Shown: piece after piece, positions 5,775 through 62,678 of the stretch
How positions within the stretch are numbered: the first letter of the stretch is position 1
Layout of the letters: each line of letters begins with the position of its first letter
Source of the DNA: Armatimonadota bacterium
Lineage (GTDB): Bacteria; Armatimonadota; Fimbriimonadia; Fimbriimonadales; Fimbriimonadaceae
DNA: 64,000 nt
Assembly: GCA_025360125.1 (NCBI GenBank)
Contig: JANYCU010000051.1
Coordinates: forward strand, 62,001 to 126,000
Direction of reading: 5' to 3'
Notes under the pieces: generated by a model
Seen by the model: the letters and a program-made list of their open reading frames with translations, nothing else
Told to the model about the DNA's origin: nothing
Database searches by the model: none
Made by a program: the position numbers and the translations under genes

Positions 5775-6593
5775 TCAGTTTGCCATTCCGTTCCAGAACT
5801 TGTCTTTCGTTTGTGTCGAGGTGCTCTCTCCTACCAACGAATCGATCGAGACAAATTTGGTGTGTCCATCGAGCCAGTTGACGACCACTTTCTTCGGATC
5901 ATATCGGCCCCACAATTGACCTTGAGTTCGAGCATCAATGCCGATTGCATTCGGGTCAGACGACGCAACTGGTAGCCAGAAGCTTGGGGCATCGATTCGG
6001 TGATATCCGACTGCCCGCCGAACAACTGGTTGGCCAGGAGCGATAATATCTTTTCCGGTGGCTTCGGCAAACATAACGGTTTGAGCAGTGTTGCCAAATG
6101 AAGTGGCAGAGACTCCCGCGTAATCTAACGCGCCAAATGGCCCAGCGGTCGCGACATTCAGATATTTTCGGTTGTACCCGTAGCTGGGGTATGCCCCGGT
6201 CAGATACCAATAGGCACAGCCACCCTTATCGAATCGTCCGAAAGTCGGACAGCCGGAGAAGTGCATTGCGGGATCATCGGCTCGATCGGTTGGATCAAGA
6301 AATAACTCCGTACTCTTCGTGTAGTTCTGTAGAAGCACCGGGTAAAAATAAAACCCGTTAGTTGATGGAATTGACAAATCGGCGGGGTTAAACCAACGAA
6401 GTGGAATCGTCACGTCGTCGTAATCATTCATGTAAAGCAATGTTCCAGTTGCAATTTGCTTCATGTTGCTGATGGTCATGGTCTTTTTGGCCGCTAGTTT
6501 CGCCTGGGCAAATACAGGAAACAAAATGGCCGCAAGAATGGCAATAATGGCGATAACAACAAGGAGTTCAATCAAAGTGAACGCACGCTTCAT
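5775..6593 (-). CDS. Prepilin-type pseudopilin (H-X9-DG/DUF1559-like)
   Basis: A 272-residue secreted protein with a type IV prepilin N-terminus: a short basic leader MKRA, then FTLIELLVVIAIIAILAAIL with the conserved Glu at +5. The following FPVFAQAKLAAKKT and SNMKQIATGTLLYMNDYDD are typical of the large pseudopilin family of Armatimonadota and Planctomycetota, and VNWLDGHTKFVS near the C-terminus is the matching H-X-DG-like tail. It is expected to be cleaved by a prepilin peptidase and to sit in, or be secreted by, a type II/IV pilus-like system. No pilus assembly genes are adjacent, so its partners are unknown. Confidence 0.9.
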   Translation of the reverse strand: MKRAFTLIELLVVIAIIAILAAILFPVFAQAKLAAKKTMTISNMKQIATGTLLYMNDYDDVTIPLRWFNPADLSIPSTNGFYFYPVLLQNYTKSTELFLDPTDRADDPAMHFSGCPTFGRFDKGGCAYWYLTGAYPSYGYNRKYLNVATAGPFGALDYAGVSATSFGNTAQTVMFAEATGKDIIAPGQPVVRRAVGYHRIDAPSFWLPVASSDPNAIGIDARTQGQLWGRYDPKKVVVNWLDGHTKFVSIDSLVGESTSTQTKDKFWNGMAN

Positions 6594-11110: not shown

Positions 11111-11548
11111 ATGAGGCGGAAACGAGGATTTACGCTGGTTGAATTGCTGATCGTCATCATCATCGTGACGGTCCTGGCCAGCATTGCCATTCCAAAATTC
11201 TCCGACTCATCAATTAGAGCCAAAGAGTCTCGCTTGAAGCTCTTTCTGCGTTCGGTGAGGGATGCAACCGATCGCTTTCATAATGACACAGGTTTGTGGC
11301 CCCAAAGTACTGATCTGCTCACCGGAGCAACGCCAACTCAAGGCATTGATGACAATGCAATCCTCCGGCCGATCACTGCAGCCGACTATCACGGCCCCTA
11401 CTTCAATCAGGAATCCTTTGCAGTTGGTATTTCCGGAATCACCAGCATCACGTACGTTAACTTGACGGGTGGCGCACTGAAAGTCGGGTCATGGAAGGTT
11501 ATCAGCTCTGCGACCGCTTCGGACGGAACCGCCTATACCACCTGGTAA
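11111..11548 (+). CDS. GspG-like pseudopilin
   Basis: A 145-residue prepilin: basic leader MRRKRG, then FTLVELLIVIIIVTVLASIA and IPKFSDSSIRAKESRLKLFL, with the Glu at +5 of the mature protein. The length and the segment VRDATDRFHNDTGLWPQSTD, followed by YFNQESFAVG, resemble the major pseudopilin of type II secretion (GspG), which has a short N-terminal helix and a small beta domain. It stands alone, divergent from the sensor kinase and closed by a terminator directly downstream. No prepilin peptidase or secretion ATPase is nearby. GspG-like versus a generic type IV pilin-like protein cannot be settled. Confidence 0.85.
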   Translation: MRRKRGFTLVELLIVIIIVTVLASIAIPKFSDSSIRAKESRLKLFLRSVRDATDRFHNDTGLWPQSTDLLTGATPTQGIDDNAILRPITAADYHGPYFNQESFAVGISGITSITYVNLTGGALKVGSWKVISSATASDGTAYTTW

Positions 11549-57943: not shown

Positions 57944-60900
57944 TTATTTTCCTCCGTCGCTATCCTTGGGCCGGTTAAAGTCTGAGGCACCGCTCGTTCT
58001 AAATTGTCCGCCCGTGGGGTTTTCCACCAGCAGGTCCATGATGTCTCCAACCGTGGGGTACATCGCGGTCTGAGCAAAGATCAGGCTGCTCTGCCGAACC
58101 GGATTGATCCGAGGGCTTCTTGTAAACCAACCGATAAGGGGCACCGTCGGGAAGATATCGCGCAGGATTGGTAAACCACCCGAAGTCTTCTCGGCCCGTC
58201 CCAGCATATAGTTGTTCTCAAAACTCGAAATCTCGCTGATGTCTAAGTTCGAAATTTGGACCTCCGTATTGACGGTGTGGCGATCAATCCTCGCAGATTG
58301 AAGTTGAGTAGTCCCGTTCGGCTCTTGAATGTTTGTTGCCTGCGCATAGTCCAATCTGAACGTAATGCCTTGTCCCGAAGGATTGAATATCGGATTGACT
58401 TTAAAGCTGCCTCCGGTTCCGATGCTGTAAATTTCTCCTCGATCTTCTTTGGGCATGTCCAAGAGGGAGCTAAGCAGGGCTCCGAAGGTTCCGAATCCCA
58501 GCTTGTTGTTCTTCATTACTGCACTGGTTGCAGCACCGTCGATCAACGCTTTTGCCGCTGAATTGTTAGAAGATTCATCCACTGTTGGCTTTTGTGTCGG
58601 AGCGAGCGATTTGAGAATGGACAGCAGAGCCGCCGATTCACCGACGACATTTTGCTCGTCACCAACCTGAACGTTTGCACTTCCTGTCACTTCGACGCGA
58701 GCGAGCAATCGATTGCTGGCAAGGATCGATTTGCGCTCATAACCACCGAACGAGATGCCACGAACCGAAGTAGCCGCGCGAACTCGTGTGAGCATAGGTT
58801 CGACAAAGAATTTGTCGAAGTCCGTTTCGAAGGTTTCCATAAACCTCTTGATCATCTGATCGGCGGCGGCGACGCGAGGCGTGGCAGTGGAAAGGGATTC
58901 ACTTTCTTCGAGCCTGTCGGCAAGGCGATTCAGTCTCGTAGCGTCGTCCGGGCCAGGCTCTGCTACACTCGTCATGTCAGCCCTGTAGTGAACCAACCCT
59001 TTCGCAAATTTTATGATCTCCAATTCTTCTGAGGGAATTGGTTCGGCTTTGCCTCTAATTTTATTTCCAATATAGTAAGCCGTTCTGCGAAGTTCGCTCG
59101 CCAAATTCCGTCGTATCTTTGCCCGCAATCCGTAAAGGATTTCGAGCTGATTCGAAGAGACTTCGTCGTTCGCAAGAATGCCGCTCCCGACCAAGACTCC
59201 CCCCTGCATCCAGCTTGAATCTGCACCTGCTCCTGAAAATGGATTGGCGCCGAAAACCGAACGAGGGAATAGTGGATACGGGGCAAATTTCTTTGCATCC
59301 GCGAACTCTGGCTCGTTGTGAGCTTGGTTGCCAAATTGCCGAATCGTCGCCACCGCAAAATCAAAAATCTGCTTGTTCGCTTCGTTGGCCGGATCCTTTA
59401 CACCTGCAATATCGTGGTTCAGCTTTGCATCGTAATAGAGCTGTTCGGCAAAGTCGTGAAGTATGCGTTCACGAGAATCTTTCGATACCAGACTCATTAC
59501 AAACAACATCTCGCCCAGAGTGGTCACCTTAGCCGGATCAGGAACAGTGAGACTACACAAGTAACGATTTGATCGGCAATTGGAAACCTTTTTGACCTCA
59601 GTACCGCTGATGAGATAAGTGTAGAGAGACTGAATGCTATTGTGGAGTCGCATCGTTAGAACTTCAATATCACCATCTGGAACGGTGTGTAATTTGGGTT
59701 CAACGTGTTTGCAGGGACAATCCGAAGACTTACACGTACATTTAGTGCCTTTCCGTCCAACTCCCGCACATTTGCATTCTTTGTCGGAGCACTTTTGAAA
59801 GTTAGCGTCACAGTTGTAAGCTCGGACAAGTTCATCGCAAACACTGTCTGGGTCATCATGATGGCCCCGAACGACCTCATATGCCTCACTAAAGACGCGC
59901 TTAAATGCTTTACCCTCAGGTTTCACATTGAAGAAGTTGTCTAGATAGGCAGCAATAACTTGGTCGCTATTGGCCCTTCGCTGAACTACCGTGGCTAAAT
60001 ATGCCGCTCGTGTTGCCACCAGCCTAAATCGGGCAAAGGCGAATTTTGCAGCCTTCTGGTTAGCTGCCTGAACATTTCGATCTTCGGTTTTACTACCTTT
60101 GAAGTACTGCTGGGCAGACTTCAATTCAGTAGCAGCGTCGGCGATCAATGCCGAAAGCTCCTCAAGTTCAACTAACGTTCGATTGATCCTCCATGCATCT
60201 CGGTCAAGGCCAGAAACTCCAAGCGTTGCTTGAACCTCAGCACTGTACACCTGTGCGCGGTGGTACCCACCGTAATCTCTACTTCTATCAACAACGCCGA
60301 CACTTGGGCCAGTCTTCTGATGACTGTCATATAGCCTCGAAGCTCGCTCGCATCGACCGACTTCCGCCGTAATCGCATTCCGAAGTGTGTCCTGCACGAT
60401 TCCCATCGAAGCCTTCGCATCCCGAAGCGCTCCGGTTATGTTTGCCATTGCATTAGCCATGGCTTGAGGGTCTTGACCGTTCACCTGTAATGTGTGCAAG
60501 GTAATTCGGGCTTGCGGCGTCGGTCGATCAAACAGAGCGATCATGTCCTTGACCATCGTCACATTACGCTTCGGTCCGCGAAGAACGATGACCTTTGACC
60601 GCGGGAAAATCACCAGTCGAACGCCTCGGGCAGCCGACCCTGCATCTCGAAACCCTGGTGCAAGATAGATTGGCTCGTTTTGTACGTAGCCACCAAATGC
60701 TTCCGCTTCATCCGAAGCTAAGCCAGGCATTCCAAGTCGAATCACGTTGAGGGCCTTCGACTTCTCAAGCAAGGCACTCTCGGCATTTTCTATCTTCGAG
60801 GGAGCGTCGTCCTTCTCGGTAGTGAGGGCAGTTGCTTGATTGTCTAACTTCGTTTTTTCGATTTCCGCTGCCGTCTTTTTTTTAGTTGTTTCGCTAGTAC

Positions 60901-62572
60901 TCTTTGCCAGTGCTTCTTGGCGGTCGGTCAGAAGCTTCTTCTGTTTATTGAGCTCGGCTTTTTGCGCTTCCGTACTGCTCGTCAACTTTCCGTCGATACC
61001 TTTGATTTGATCAGATATCTTCTTGTCTTCATCCGAGTTCGATGCTAGCCGGCTGGTGTACCTCGCAATCTCCTTGTCTTTGTTTGCTGTTTCTTTGTTT
61101 AATTTTGTGATGGTATCACGCAATGTCAATAAACGAGACTGGAGTTCGTTGCGCTCCGCACTCGTAACAAAAATGTCGGCCTCCAGTTTACGCAACTCGT
61201 TTTTCTTTTGCGAAGCGACTTTATCGGCACTTATCGAGTTGGGGTTCAACAAAATGAAATCTTCTCGAGGGCGAAGTGAATTAGCTATCGCCATCGGATT
61301 TGGGTAGTAGAACAATCGAACTTGATCGACGATAGTGTCGTCGGAAGCGCCCTCCAACCAATCTTCAAGCGAGATAAGTTGGTTCTGAAATGCCTCTAGT
61401 GAGCTTGGAAGGGCATAACTAAAGTTAGGGGTCGCACATTTCACAGCCTCAACAAATGACTTATTTAAAGAGCTTACGCAAGCGTCCAGTGTCCTCCCTT
61501 CTCTGTTCACCACTGTAAGGTCCACGACCTCAGAATTCTTTGCCACTTTGAGTCGGCCCTTGATGGCTTCGGTTTGAACTGGCAGATATTTGTTAGCTAA
61601 ACACTCGCTTGCCACATATGAGGCCGTGATGGATTTTATGGATTCTTTTACCGCGTCGGTAAGTTCCTTGTACACTGTTGCAACCGAGCGATCGCCATTA
61701 AAGGCAAATTGTTCAAATGAACGGAGATCCATAATGAACGTCAATGGGCTAACATATTCATCGAGATTTACTGAGGCCGTCCTAAGATAGTCAGCTACAT
61801 CGGAATTCGATGCTAGCTCGTAATTTGGAGTTGCAGGATATGTACCGATTGCCTTGGCAAATTTAGCTTGTTCAGTTAAAAGCGACTTGATATCGTCGAT
61901 GACTTTCTTAGTTCGAAGATGCAGGACACAGTTTTCTGCCGAAGCCGTCGCTTCAAGTTTCTTGGTAAAGAAGTTTTGCTGAAGTGATGCTAAGTCTTTG
62001 GTCAGTTGCTCATTGCCGATTTTTCCATCTTCTTTTTGTTTTTTGAAGGAGTCCAGATTTCCGTCTAATTTCGTTTTGTCGGCTACAAGCTTGTCGTGCG
62101 CGATCTTTTGGGATTTGTAAGATTCTGAGGCCGTATCGGTTACCCCGTCGAGTCTCGTTTGGGATTCATCGACCTCTTTTTTCTTTCCATCGCTGGCCGA
62201 TTGAGCTTCCGATATTTTGCCGTCAATTGCCTTATAATCGGCGATCGACACAAGAACCTGGTTCGTCAAATCGACGACCGCACCTTCAATTTTTATGTCC
62301 GAGGTATCGAGCTTCTTAACAACACTTGTAATCGCTACAAGTCTTTCGCGAGCAGTGGCAGGTTCAGGCTTGGGCGGATACGCTAACAATTCTTCATAGT
62401 TCTTGATCGTATCCGTAACCTGTTGATGAAGACCTCTCGTCTGGACGAACTCAATCCTCACCTTCGTTACTGGTTCACGACGCGAGCCATGAACGTGAAT
62501 CGAAGCACAGACGGTGACCATCGCCATCGCGGCAATAGAAATTGTTACAAAAGATTTCGAATAGAAACGCAT
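57944..62572 (-). CDS. Giant secretin-like protein with coiled coils and a Cys-rich insert
   Basis: A 1542-residue exported protein. Parts: signal peptide (about 1-28, SFVTISIAAMAMVTVCASIH); coiled coil 1 (115-210, Lys/Asp/Glu-rich); helical region (215-435); coiled coil 2 (450-610); a secretin N-domain-like unit (650-700: VRLVIFPRSKVIVLRGPKRN then VTMVKDMIALFDRPTPQARI); helical region; cysteine cluster 912-954 with nine Cys (CTC, CPC and CKC pairs, metallothionein-like); helical region; and a secretin C-domain-like end (1280-1515: ISSFENNYMLGRAEKTSGGL, PILRDIFPTVPLIGWFTRSP, SSLIFAQTAMYPT). Secretins form outer-membrane pores for type II, III or IV systems; they are usually 400-750 residues. 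Pore function is inferred. Confidence 0.72.
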   Translation of the reverse strand: MRFYSKSFVTISIAAMAMVTVCASIHVHGSRREPVTKVRIEFVQTRGLHQQVTDTIKNYEELLAYPPKPEPATARERLVAITSVVKKLDTSDIKIEGAVVDLTNQVLVSIADYKAIDGKISEAQSASDGKKKEVDESQTRLDGVTDTASESYKSQKIAHDKLVADKTKLDGNLDSFKKQKEDGKIGNEQLTKDLASLQQNFFTKKLEATASAENCVLHLRTKKVIDDIKSLLTEQAKFAKAIGTYPATPNYELASNSDVADYLRTASVNLDEYVSPLTFIMDLRSFEQFAFNGDRSVATVYKELTDAVKESIKSITASYVASECLANKYLPVQTEAIKGRLKVAKNSEVVDLTVVNREGRTLDACVSSLNKSFVEAVKCATPNFSYALPSSLEAFQNQLISLEDWLEGASDDTIVDQVRLFYYPNPMAIANSLRPREDFILLNPNSISADKVASQKKNELRKLEADIFVTSAERNELQSRLLTLRDTITKLNKETANKDKEIARYTSRLASNSDEDKKISDQIKGIDGKLTSSTEAQKAELNKQKKLLTDRQEALAKSTSETTKKKTAAEIEKTKLDNQATALTTEKDDAPSKIENAESALLEKSKALNVIRLGMPGLASDEAEAFGGYVQNEPIYLAPGFRDAGSAARGVRLVIFPRSKVIVLRGPKRNVTMVKDMIALFDRPTPQARITLHTLQVNGQDPQAMANAMANITGALRDAKASMGIVQDTLRNAITAEVGRCERASRLYDSHQKTGPSVGVVDRSRDYGGYHRAQVYSAEVQATLGVSGLDRDAWRINRTLVELEELSALIADAATELKSAQQYFKGSKTEDRNVQAANQKAAKFAFARFRLVATRAAYLATVVQRRANSDQVIAAYLDNFFNVKPEGKAFKRVFSEAYEVVRGHHDDPDSVCDELVRAYNCDANFQKCSDKECKCAGVGRKGTKCTCKSSDCPCKHVEPKLHTVPDGDIEVLTMRLHNSIQSLYTYLISGTEVKKVSNCRSNRYLCSLTVPDPAKVTTLGEMLFVMSLVSKDSRERILHDFAEQLYYDAKLNHDIAGVKDPANEANKQIFDFAVATIRQFGNQAHNEPEFADAKKFAPYPLFPRSVFGANPFSGAGADSSWMQGGVLVGSGILANDEVSSNQLEILYGLRAKIRRNLASELRRTAYYIGNKIRGKAEPIPSEELEIIKFAKGLVHYRADMTSVAEPGPDDATRLNRLADRLEESESLSTATPRVAAADQMIKRFMETFETDFDKFFVEPMLTRVRAATSVRGISFGGYERKSILASNRLLARVEVTGSANVQVGDEQNVVGESAALLSILKSLAPTQKPTVDESSNNSAAKALIDGAATSAVMKNNKLGFGTFGALLSSLLDMPKEDRGEIYSIGTGGSFKVNPIFNPSGQGITFRLDYAQATNIQEPNGTTQLQSARIDRHTVNTEVQISNLDISEISSFENNYMLGRAEKTSGGLPILRDIFPTVPLIGWFTRSPRINPVRQSSLIFAQTAMYPTVGDIMDLLVENPTGGQFRTSGASDFNRPKDSDGGK

Positions 62573-62649: not shown

Positions 62650-62678
62650 GTTCTAACACGTCTAATGTAAAATGTCAA
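62650..62678 (-). promoter_or_regulatory. Promoter of the giant secretin-like gene
   Basis: Minus strand: consensus -35 TTGACA (62678-62673), 17-base spacer, -10 TAGAAC (62655-62650). Predicted start about 70 bases upstream of the ATG at 62572, which is preceded by GTGGGGA. The remainder of the 290-base gap 62573-62860 shows no gene; CCCTC/GAGGG complements near 62.83-62.85 kb lie after ligA but lack a T-run. Confidence 0.65.

Follow-up and report, generated by a model that had tools for sequence, protein, structure and literature searches.

The window analysed here is a 64,000-nucleotide stretch of contig C25 in a 4.1-Mb Armatimonadota assembly (G000). Open-reading-frame analysis placed a gene for an orphan secretin-like protein of 1542 residues at positions 57944–62572 on its minus strand, to which the coordinates of all protein features given below also refer. 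The frame starts with ATG, contains no internal stop codon, has gene-like GC at its codon positions and is preceded by a ribosome-binding-like GGGGA; the genome holds one copy. Residues 1 to about 29 (62486–62572) read as an N-terminal export signal. Sec signals are clearer in the long-type relatives described below than in the window protein, and export signals occur throughout the family. A possible promoter (TTGACA, 17 nt, TAGAAC) lies upstream at 62650–62678. The first-pass annotation had credited the gene with its own consensus promoter, which was overstated: the TTGACA at 62678–62673 is perfect, but the −10 element is TAGAAC and the promoter scan listed zero sites upstream of the gene.

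The surrounding genes are ligA, an HhH-GPD glycosylase gene (49 bp downstream of the secretin gene), accD and accA. Contig C25 carries no T2SSE ATPase and no further secretin match, and neither a partner gene nor an N0 (STN) domain nor a pilotin was found for the window secretin, in agreement with the earlier remark that no secretion machinery lies nearby. The neighbourhoods of the long-type relatives likewise hold no cluster of ATPase or inner-membrane partner genes. Being unlinked to such genes, the window protein stands, by gene context, outside the secretin sets of the T2SS, T4P and T3SS. The two pseudopilin genes noted previously are present as isolated pilin-like genes (N_methyl, N-terminal methylation motif) at 5775–6593 and 11111–11548, unlinked to an assembly machine. 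Elsewhere in G000, four ordinary secretins were found beside PilM/PilN/PilO-type genes, together with ten T2SSE-family hits, none of them on C25. Four pil-type operons in one Armatimonadota genome (L061, L062, L063 and L064) each contain their own secretin, whose last ring domain carries an insert rich in Gly, Gln and Asn. A second orphan secretin-like protein of G000, of the short form (658 residues; L065:5632–7608, contig C44), has a Gly/Pro/Gln-rich loop in its ring domain and a lip block of 252 residues.

Secretin homology

As a single sequence, the window protein gave no match to Pfam Secretin and matched Secretin_N at residues 644–687 with E = 3e-5, which is under the gathering cut-off and covers profile positions 26–69 only. 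Family profiles reached further. With a profile of the C-terminal domain built from 27 Armatimonadota rows, the window protein leading, the 21 best PDB sequence matches were all solved secretins; InvG came out best (4.3e-7) in this search, followed by PilQ (1e-6) and GspD (3e-6). With the ten long proteins as its only members, a profile failed to find the PDB secretins; these were found once a family of shorter orphan proteins from the phylum had been added. The profile of this short family reached GspD at 1.3e-10 through its ring and barrel domains together, its ring part aligned with the N3 domain of pIV (pIV residues 107–177), and most of its members passed the Pfam Secretin cut-off. The C-terminal domains of the long and short families were aligned by hhalign at 99.3% (E = 1.4e-20, 269 columns).

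Two fold models were calculated, both of monomers and both within residues 412–1542. The first (1109 residues, 10-row alignment) had its barrel mostly below pLDDT 50, and its structural comparison (VIA) listed generic coiled-coil hairpins alone, which were not counted as evidence of relationship. The second was made with a shorter construct and the 27-row alignment, which contained no canonical secretin, and had a mean pLDDT of 66. The 28 best rows of its VIA comparison were secretins with Z scores of 5.7–8.6, the next, unrelated row scoring 5.4; in Foldseek, secretins took ranks 1–25 with probabilities of up to 0.99, the best E value being only 0.008. By homology, as judged from family profiles and predicted fold, the window protein is confirmed as a distant and divergent member of the secretin superfamily, and the earlier identification stands.

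Within the homologous C-terminal secretin domain, the inner-barrel strands and an enlarged gate segment, partly helical in the model, are assigned by fold model and segment comparison to residues 1282–1387 (58412–58729), and the outer-barrel strands by hhalign, profile and fold model to residues 1388–1506 (58055–58411). The C-terminal secretin-like motifs noticed at first reading are present: in the alignment, PILRDIFPTVPLIGWF (residues 1468–1483; 58124–58171) corresponds to the VPxLgdIPxxGxLF / AHL motif conserved among secretins, with which LPILRDIFPTVPLIGWF of the window protein aligns. The AHL-type motif and the outer-barrel strands are conserved in the long and short families alike.

Split ring domain, enlarged lip block and cysteine cluster

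An N3/NolW-type ring domain lies directly ahead of the barrel, interrupted by 208 residues. Its first half (strand 1 and helix 1, residues 416–439; 61256–61327) was located by the fold model and a Pfam test, and its second half (residues 648–699; 60476–60631), recognized by Pfam Secretin_N and the fold model, ends in the first strand of the secretin domain. Between them, residues 440–647 (60632–61255) are predicted by AlphaFold to form an antiparallel coiled-coil hairpin with helices at 444–530 and 535–631 (pLDDT mostly 75–89), for which a length of about 13 nm was calculated (87 residues × 1.5 Å). When the two halves of the window protein were rejoined, the Pfam score was 28.9, above the cut-off, against 26.8 for the second half by itself; with the first half reversed as a control it was 26.2 and did not pass the cut-off. 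For L039 the rejoined score was 30.9 against 24.8 and 25.6, a modest gain of about 2 and about 6 bits, respectively. On these scores and the model, residues 416–439 and 648–699 are taken as one ring domain interrupted by a coiled coil. The NolW-type ring previously placed at 650–700 is real, but that piece is only half of it.

Each of the eight complete long proteins, that of the window included, has 195–278 residues at the same site. In the short orphans L045, L047 and L048 the ring domain runs unbroken over 76–80 residues. All four ordinary secretins of G000 have Gly/Gln/Asn-rich loops at this site, at which InvG also has a variable N3 loop (PMC6155069). A loop here is thus already known from other secretins, and the novelty lies in the predicted rigid coiled coil that fills it.

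Preceding the ring, a helical region (residues about 36–411; 61340–62467), defined from Pfam and the comparison of relatives, has no Pfam match and would stand in place of the N0/N1/N2 rings; for N0/STN no Pfam match was obtained up to E = 10. Its length is comparable in most of the long relatives; the 974-residue protein of G023 lacks it. Both coiled coils of the first-pass annotation were recovered, residues 112–245 (61838–62239) and 454–609 matching SMC-type helix-rich models with heptad bias. The roughly 1000 residues that it described as foreign to ordinary secretins are also present, but the long coiled coil sits inside the ring domain and not merely before it.

Residues 700–1281 (58730–60475) make up a 582-residue, mostly helical block, placed in the beta-lip segment from the fold model, segment lengths and the position of the lip in pIV (PMC8563730); the model shows helices only, at low confidence. 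From the first barrel strand to the inner-barrel motif there are 386–855 residues in the long family (582 in the window protein), 218–314 in the short family and 50–65 in the ordinary secretins of G000. The beta-lip of secretins lies between outer-barrel strands 1 and 2, and the equivalent segment of pIV contains the extracellular part of the barrel, residues 199–234 (PMC8563730). The gate segment is enlarged too, at 63–106 residues (99 in the window protein) versus 40–43 in the ordinary secretins of G000, and is partly helical in the model. The ring-domain insert, the enlarged lip and the enlarged gate are present in 8/8 complete long proteins. In several short orphans (L045:7391–10084, L047 and L082–L085) about 80 extra residues, alpha/beta-like by eye, lie within the gate segment. 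Since solved secretins build their extracellular beta-lip from this segment, residues 700–1281 would not belong to a periplasmic stalk; by topology, and by analogy with those structures, the block would be on the outward-facing lip side or would stand in for the lip that normally crosses the membrane. A long periplasmic stalk, as had been supposed, therefore does not describe the protein on its own, and with the lip apparently replaced the protein may not cross the outer membrane.

The block includes a cysteine cluster at residues 912–954 (59711–59839), with nine cysteines, among them three CxC pairs, at positions 912, 921, 928, 933, 935, 945, 947, 952 and 954, exactly as first claimed. When the 17 cysteines of the protein were placed at random in 20,000 trials, nine never fell within any 43 residues (maximum seven); the clustering is not due to chance. 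The cluster is unique to the window protein: the other nine long-type proteins, that of the same-genus genome G017 included, never have more than three cysteines in any 43 residues, although all of these are distant relatives (even their barrel domains are only 32–42% identical to that of the window protein). Absence from close relatives had been named beforehand as a sign that the cluster is not functional, and the result counts against this part of the proposal, with the reservation that none of the proteins compared is a close relative. For the metallothionein-like, metal-binding module proposed earlier, no support was found beyond the cysteines themselves, and an extracytoplasmic disulfide-rich loop is an equally possible explanation.

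Relatives and distribution

Among 291 Armatimonadota genomes searched, long-type proteins were found in ten, from five families and including G000. Eight are complete, that of the window and seven from other Armatimonadota; these share the order of parts and both inserts, and the enlarged lip is common to the shorter orphan secretins of the phylum as well. The distribution is patchy: the long form is present in 4/113 genomes of the class of the window, and ordinary secretins in 10/10 genomes tested. A match in G033 was dropped because it was located in a CHAT/TPR-like protein. A wider contig scan returned relatives from Armatimonadota alone, the named ones being Armatimonadetes/Fimbriimonadaceae MAGs, but its peptide patterns missed known relatives and so do not prove restriction to the phylum. 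No relatives were found by tblastn of plasmids and phages, and none were confirmed on viral contigs.

In a tree of the barrel domain, in which the deeper nodes are weak, the window protein groups with those of G133, G134, G151 and G156 (support 0.95). Because these belong to other families and the same-genus G017 protein is not among them, transfer or old paralogy of the long form is suggested. G017 also contains a 144-residue remnant of a second long-type secretin (L011:3074–3508), which is nearer to the G023 protein than to the complete copy in G017.

At the G023 locus (L010:4798–7279) the long secretin gene overlaps a gene for 174 residues, which in turn overlaps a gene for a 654-residue alpha/beta-hydrolase, seemingly as an operon, and a SIR2-like frame, recognized by eye, lies further downstream. 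In G133 (L040:2163–6890) a gene for a 1575-residue patatin/DUF3376 protein lies about 32 bp downstream of the long secretin gene. Among 15 genomes tested, DUF3376 was found in G133 and G000 only, in the latter on another contig; as it is adjacent only in G133 and absent from the other eight long-form genomes, this candidate partner was rejected as a coincidence. A T2SS has been reported in Armatimonadetes (PMC6668835). The open-paper literature yielded no description of an orphan secretin or of a secretin with a coiled-coil insert, and the proteins appear to form a small, undescribed lineage, so far found only in Armatimonadota.

Comparison with known secretins and possible roles

InvG (SctC, type III), which scored best against the C-terminal profile, is also among the best structural matches (Z = 8.1–8.3). 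Its insertion is of about 50 residues and partly disordered, whereas that of the window protein is of 208 residues and predicted to be a coiled coil; further features that set InvG apart are its beta-lip, its N0/N1 rings, its S domain and its ring partner in the inner membrane. The window protein shares with GspD/PulD and PilQ the barrel domain, the NolW-type ring and the VPxLgdIPxxGxLF-like motif, but it lacks a gene cluster, and an N0 domain was not detected in it. Like the window protein, pIV of f1 has a single N3-type ring directly ahead of the barrel; it is otherwise compact, with an N0 domain and a lip of 36 residues. The N3 and Gate 1 loops of pIV are directed into the pore (PMC8563730). 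The short Armatimonadota orphans such as L065 have the barrel, the enlarged lip and the ring domain and, where looked at, also lie outside pil-type operons, but they have neither the coiled-coil ring insert nor the long-type N-terminal coiled coil, and whose lip is shorter.

We give about even odds (0.5) to the reading that the protein is an exported, divergent secretin, most likely ring-forming and held at the outer membrane by its secretin barrel and AHL-type motif, where it would work on its own, either as a gated or capped channel for a putative substrate or as a ring-shaped assembly platform. Homology, order of parts, the split ring domain, the size and conservation of the inserts and the orphan status are direct results; ring formation, membrane crossing and gating are extrapolated from known secretins. 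Its three altered loops lie at sites which, in solved secretins, face the interior of the pore or the outside of the cell. The N3-ring loop would carry the rigid hairpin, and the hairpins of the multimer may fill or extend the periplasmic vestibule, replacing the N0–N2 rings and the inner-membrane partner; the large, mostly helical domain in place of the beta-lip may cap or line the outer mouth, and the gate loop would be lengthened and partly helical. A more specific version is doubtful: the ring of N3 hairpins would form a plug or a tunnel of helices, resembling TolC in its effect, and with a helical domain taking the place of the beta-lip the channel would be independent of type II, III and IV machinery.

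The main rival, which we hold to be rather unlikely, is a ring or scaffold of secretin origin which has ceased to span the outer membrane, its barrel anchoring it at the inner leaflet or forming a periplasmic ring and its helical modules binding peptidoglycan, enzymes or substrate. It is favoured by the replacement of the lip by mostly helical residues in the long and the short proteins, and the hairpin resembles, though not specifically, extracytoplasmic coiled-coil proteins such as EnvC and RipA; retention of the AHL-type motif and outer-barrel strands across both families argues against it. Service as an alternative secretin for one of the unlinked type IV pilus or type II-like machines of G000 is somewhat less probable still. 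The T2SSE-family hits and pil-operon secretins of this genome and the pilin-like genes in the window would fit, but each of the four pil-type operons already has a secretin of its own beside it, no N0 domain was detected to which a PilP/GspC-like partner could bind, and the long form is rare in a class in which ordinary secretins were found in every genome tested; a spare exit port for a pilus-type machine is possible but unsupported. That the gene is an accidental fusion, an assembly error or a non-functional frame is very improbable and already largely refuted by the relatives: decay does happen, as the G017 remnant shows, and the distribution is patchy, but eight complete proteins share one order of parts, and the frame has gene-like codon-position GC and no stops.

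Secretins are usually seen as the exit ports of larger machines. Unlinked secretins at the level of a phylum, with structured modules in the N3 loop, lip and gate, are natural tests of the roles of these loops, and the same lineage lets one ask if an inner-membrane motor is indispensable to a working secretin. Its members also show that whole branches of secretins are nearly invisible to standard domain models.
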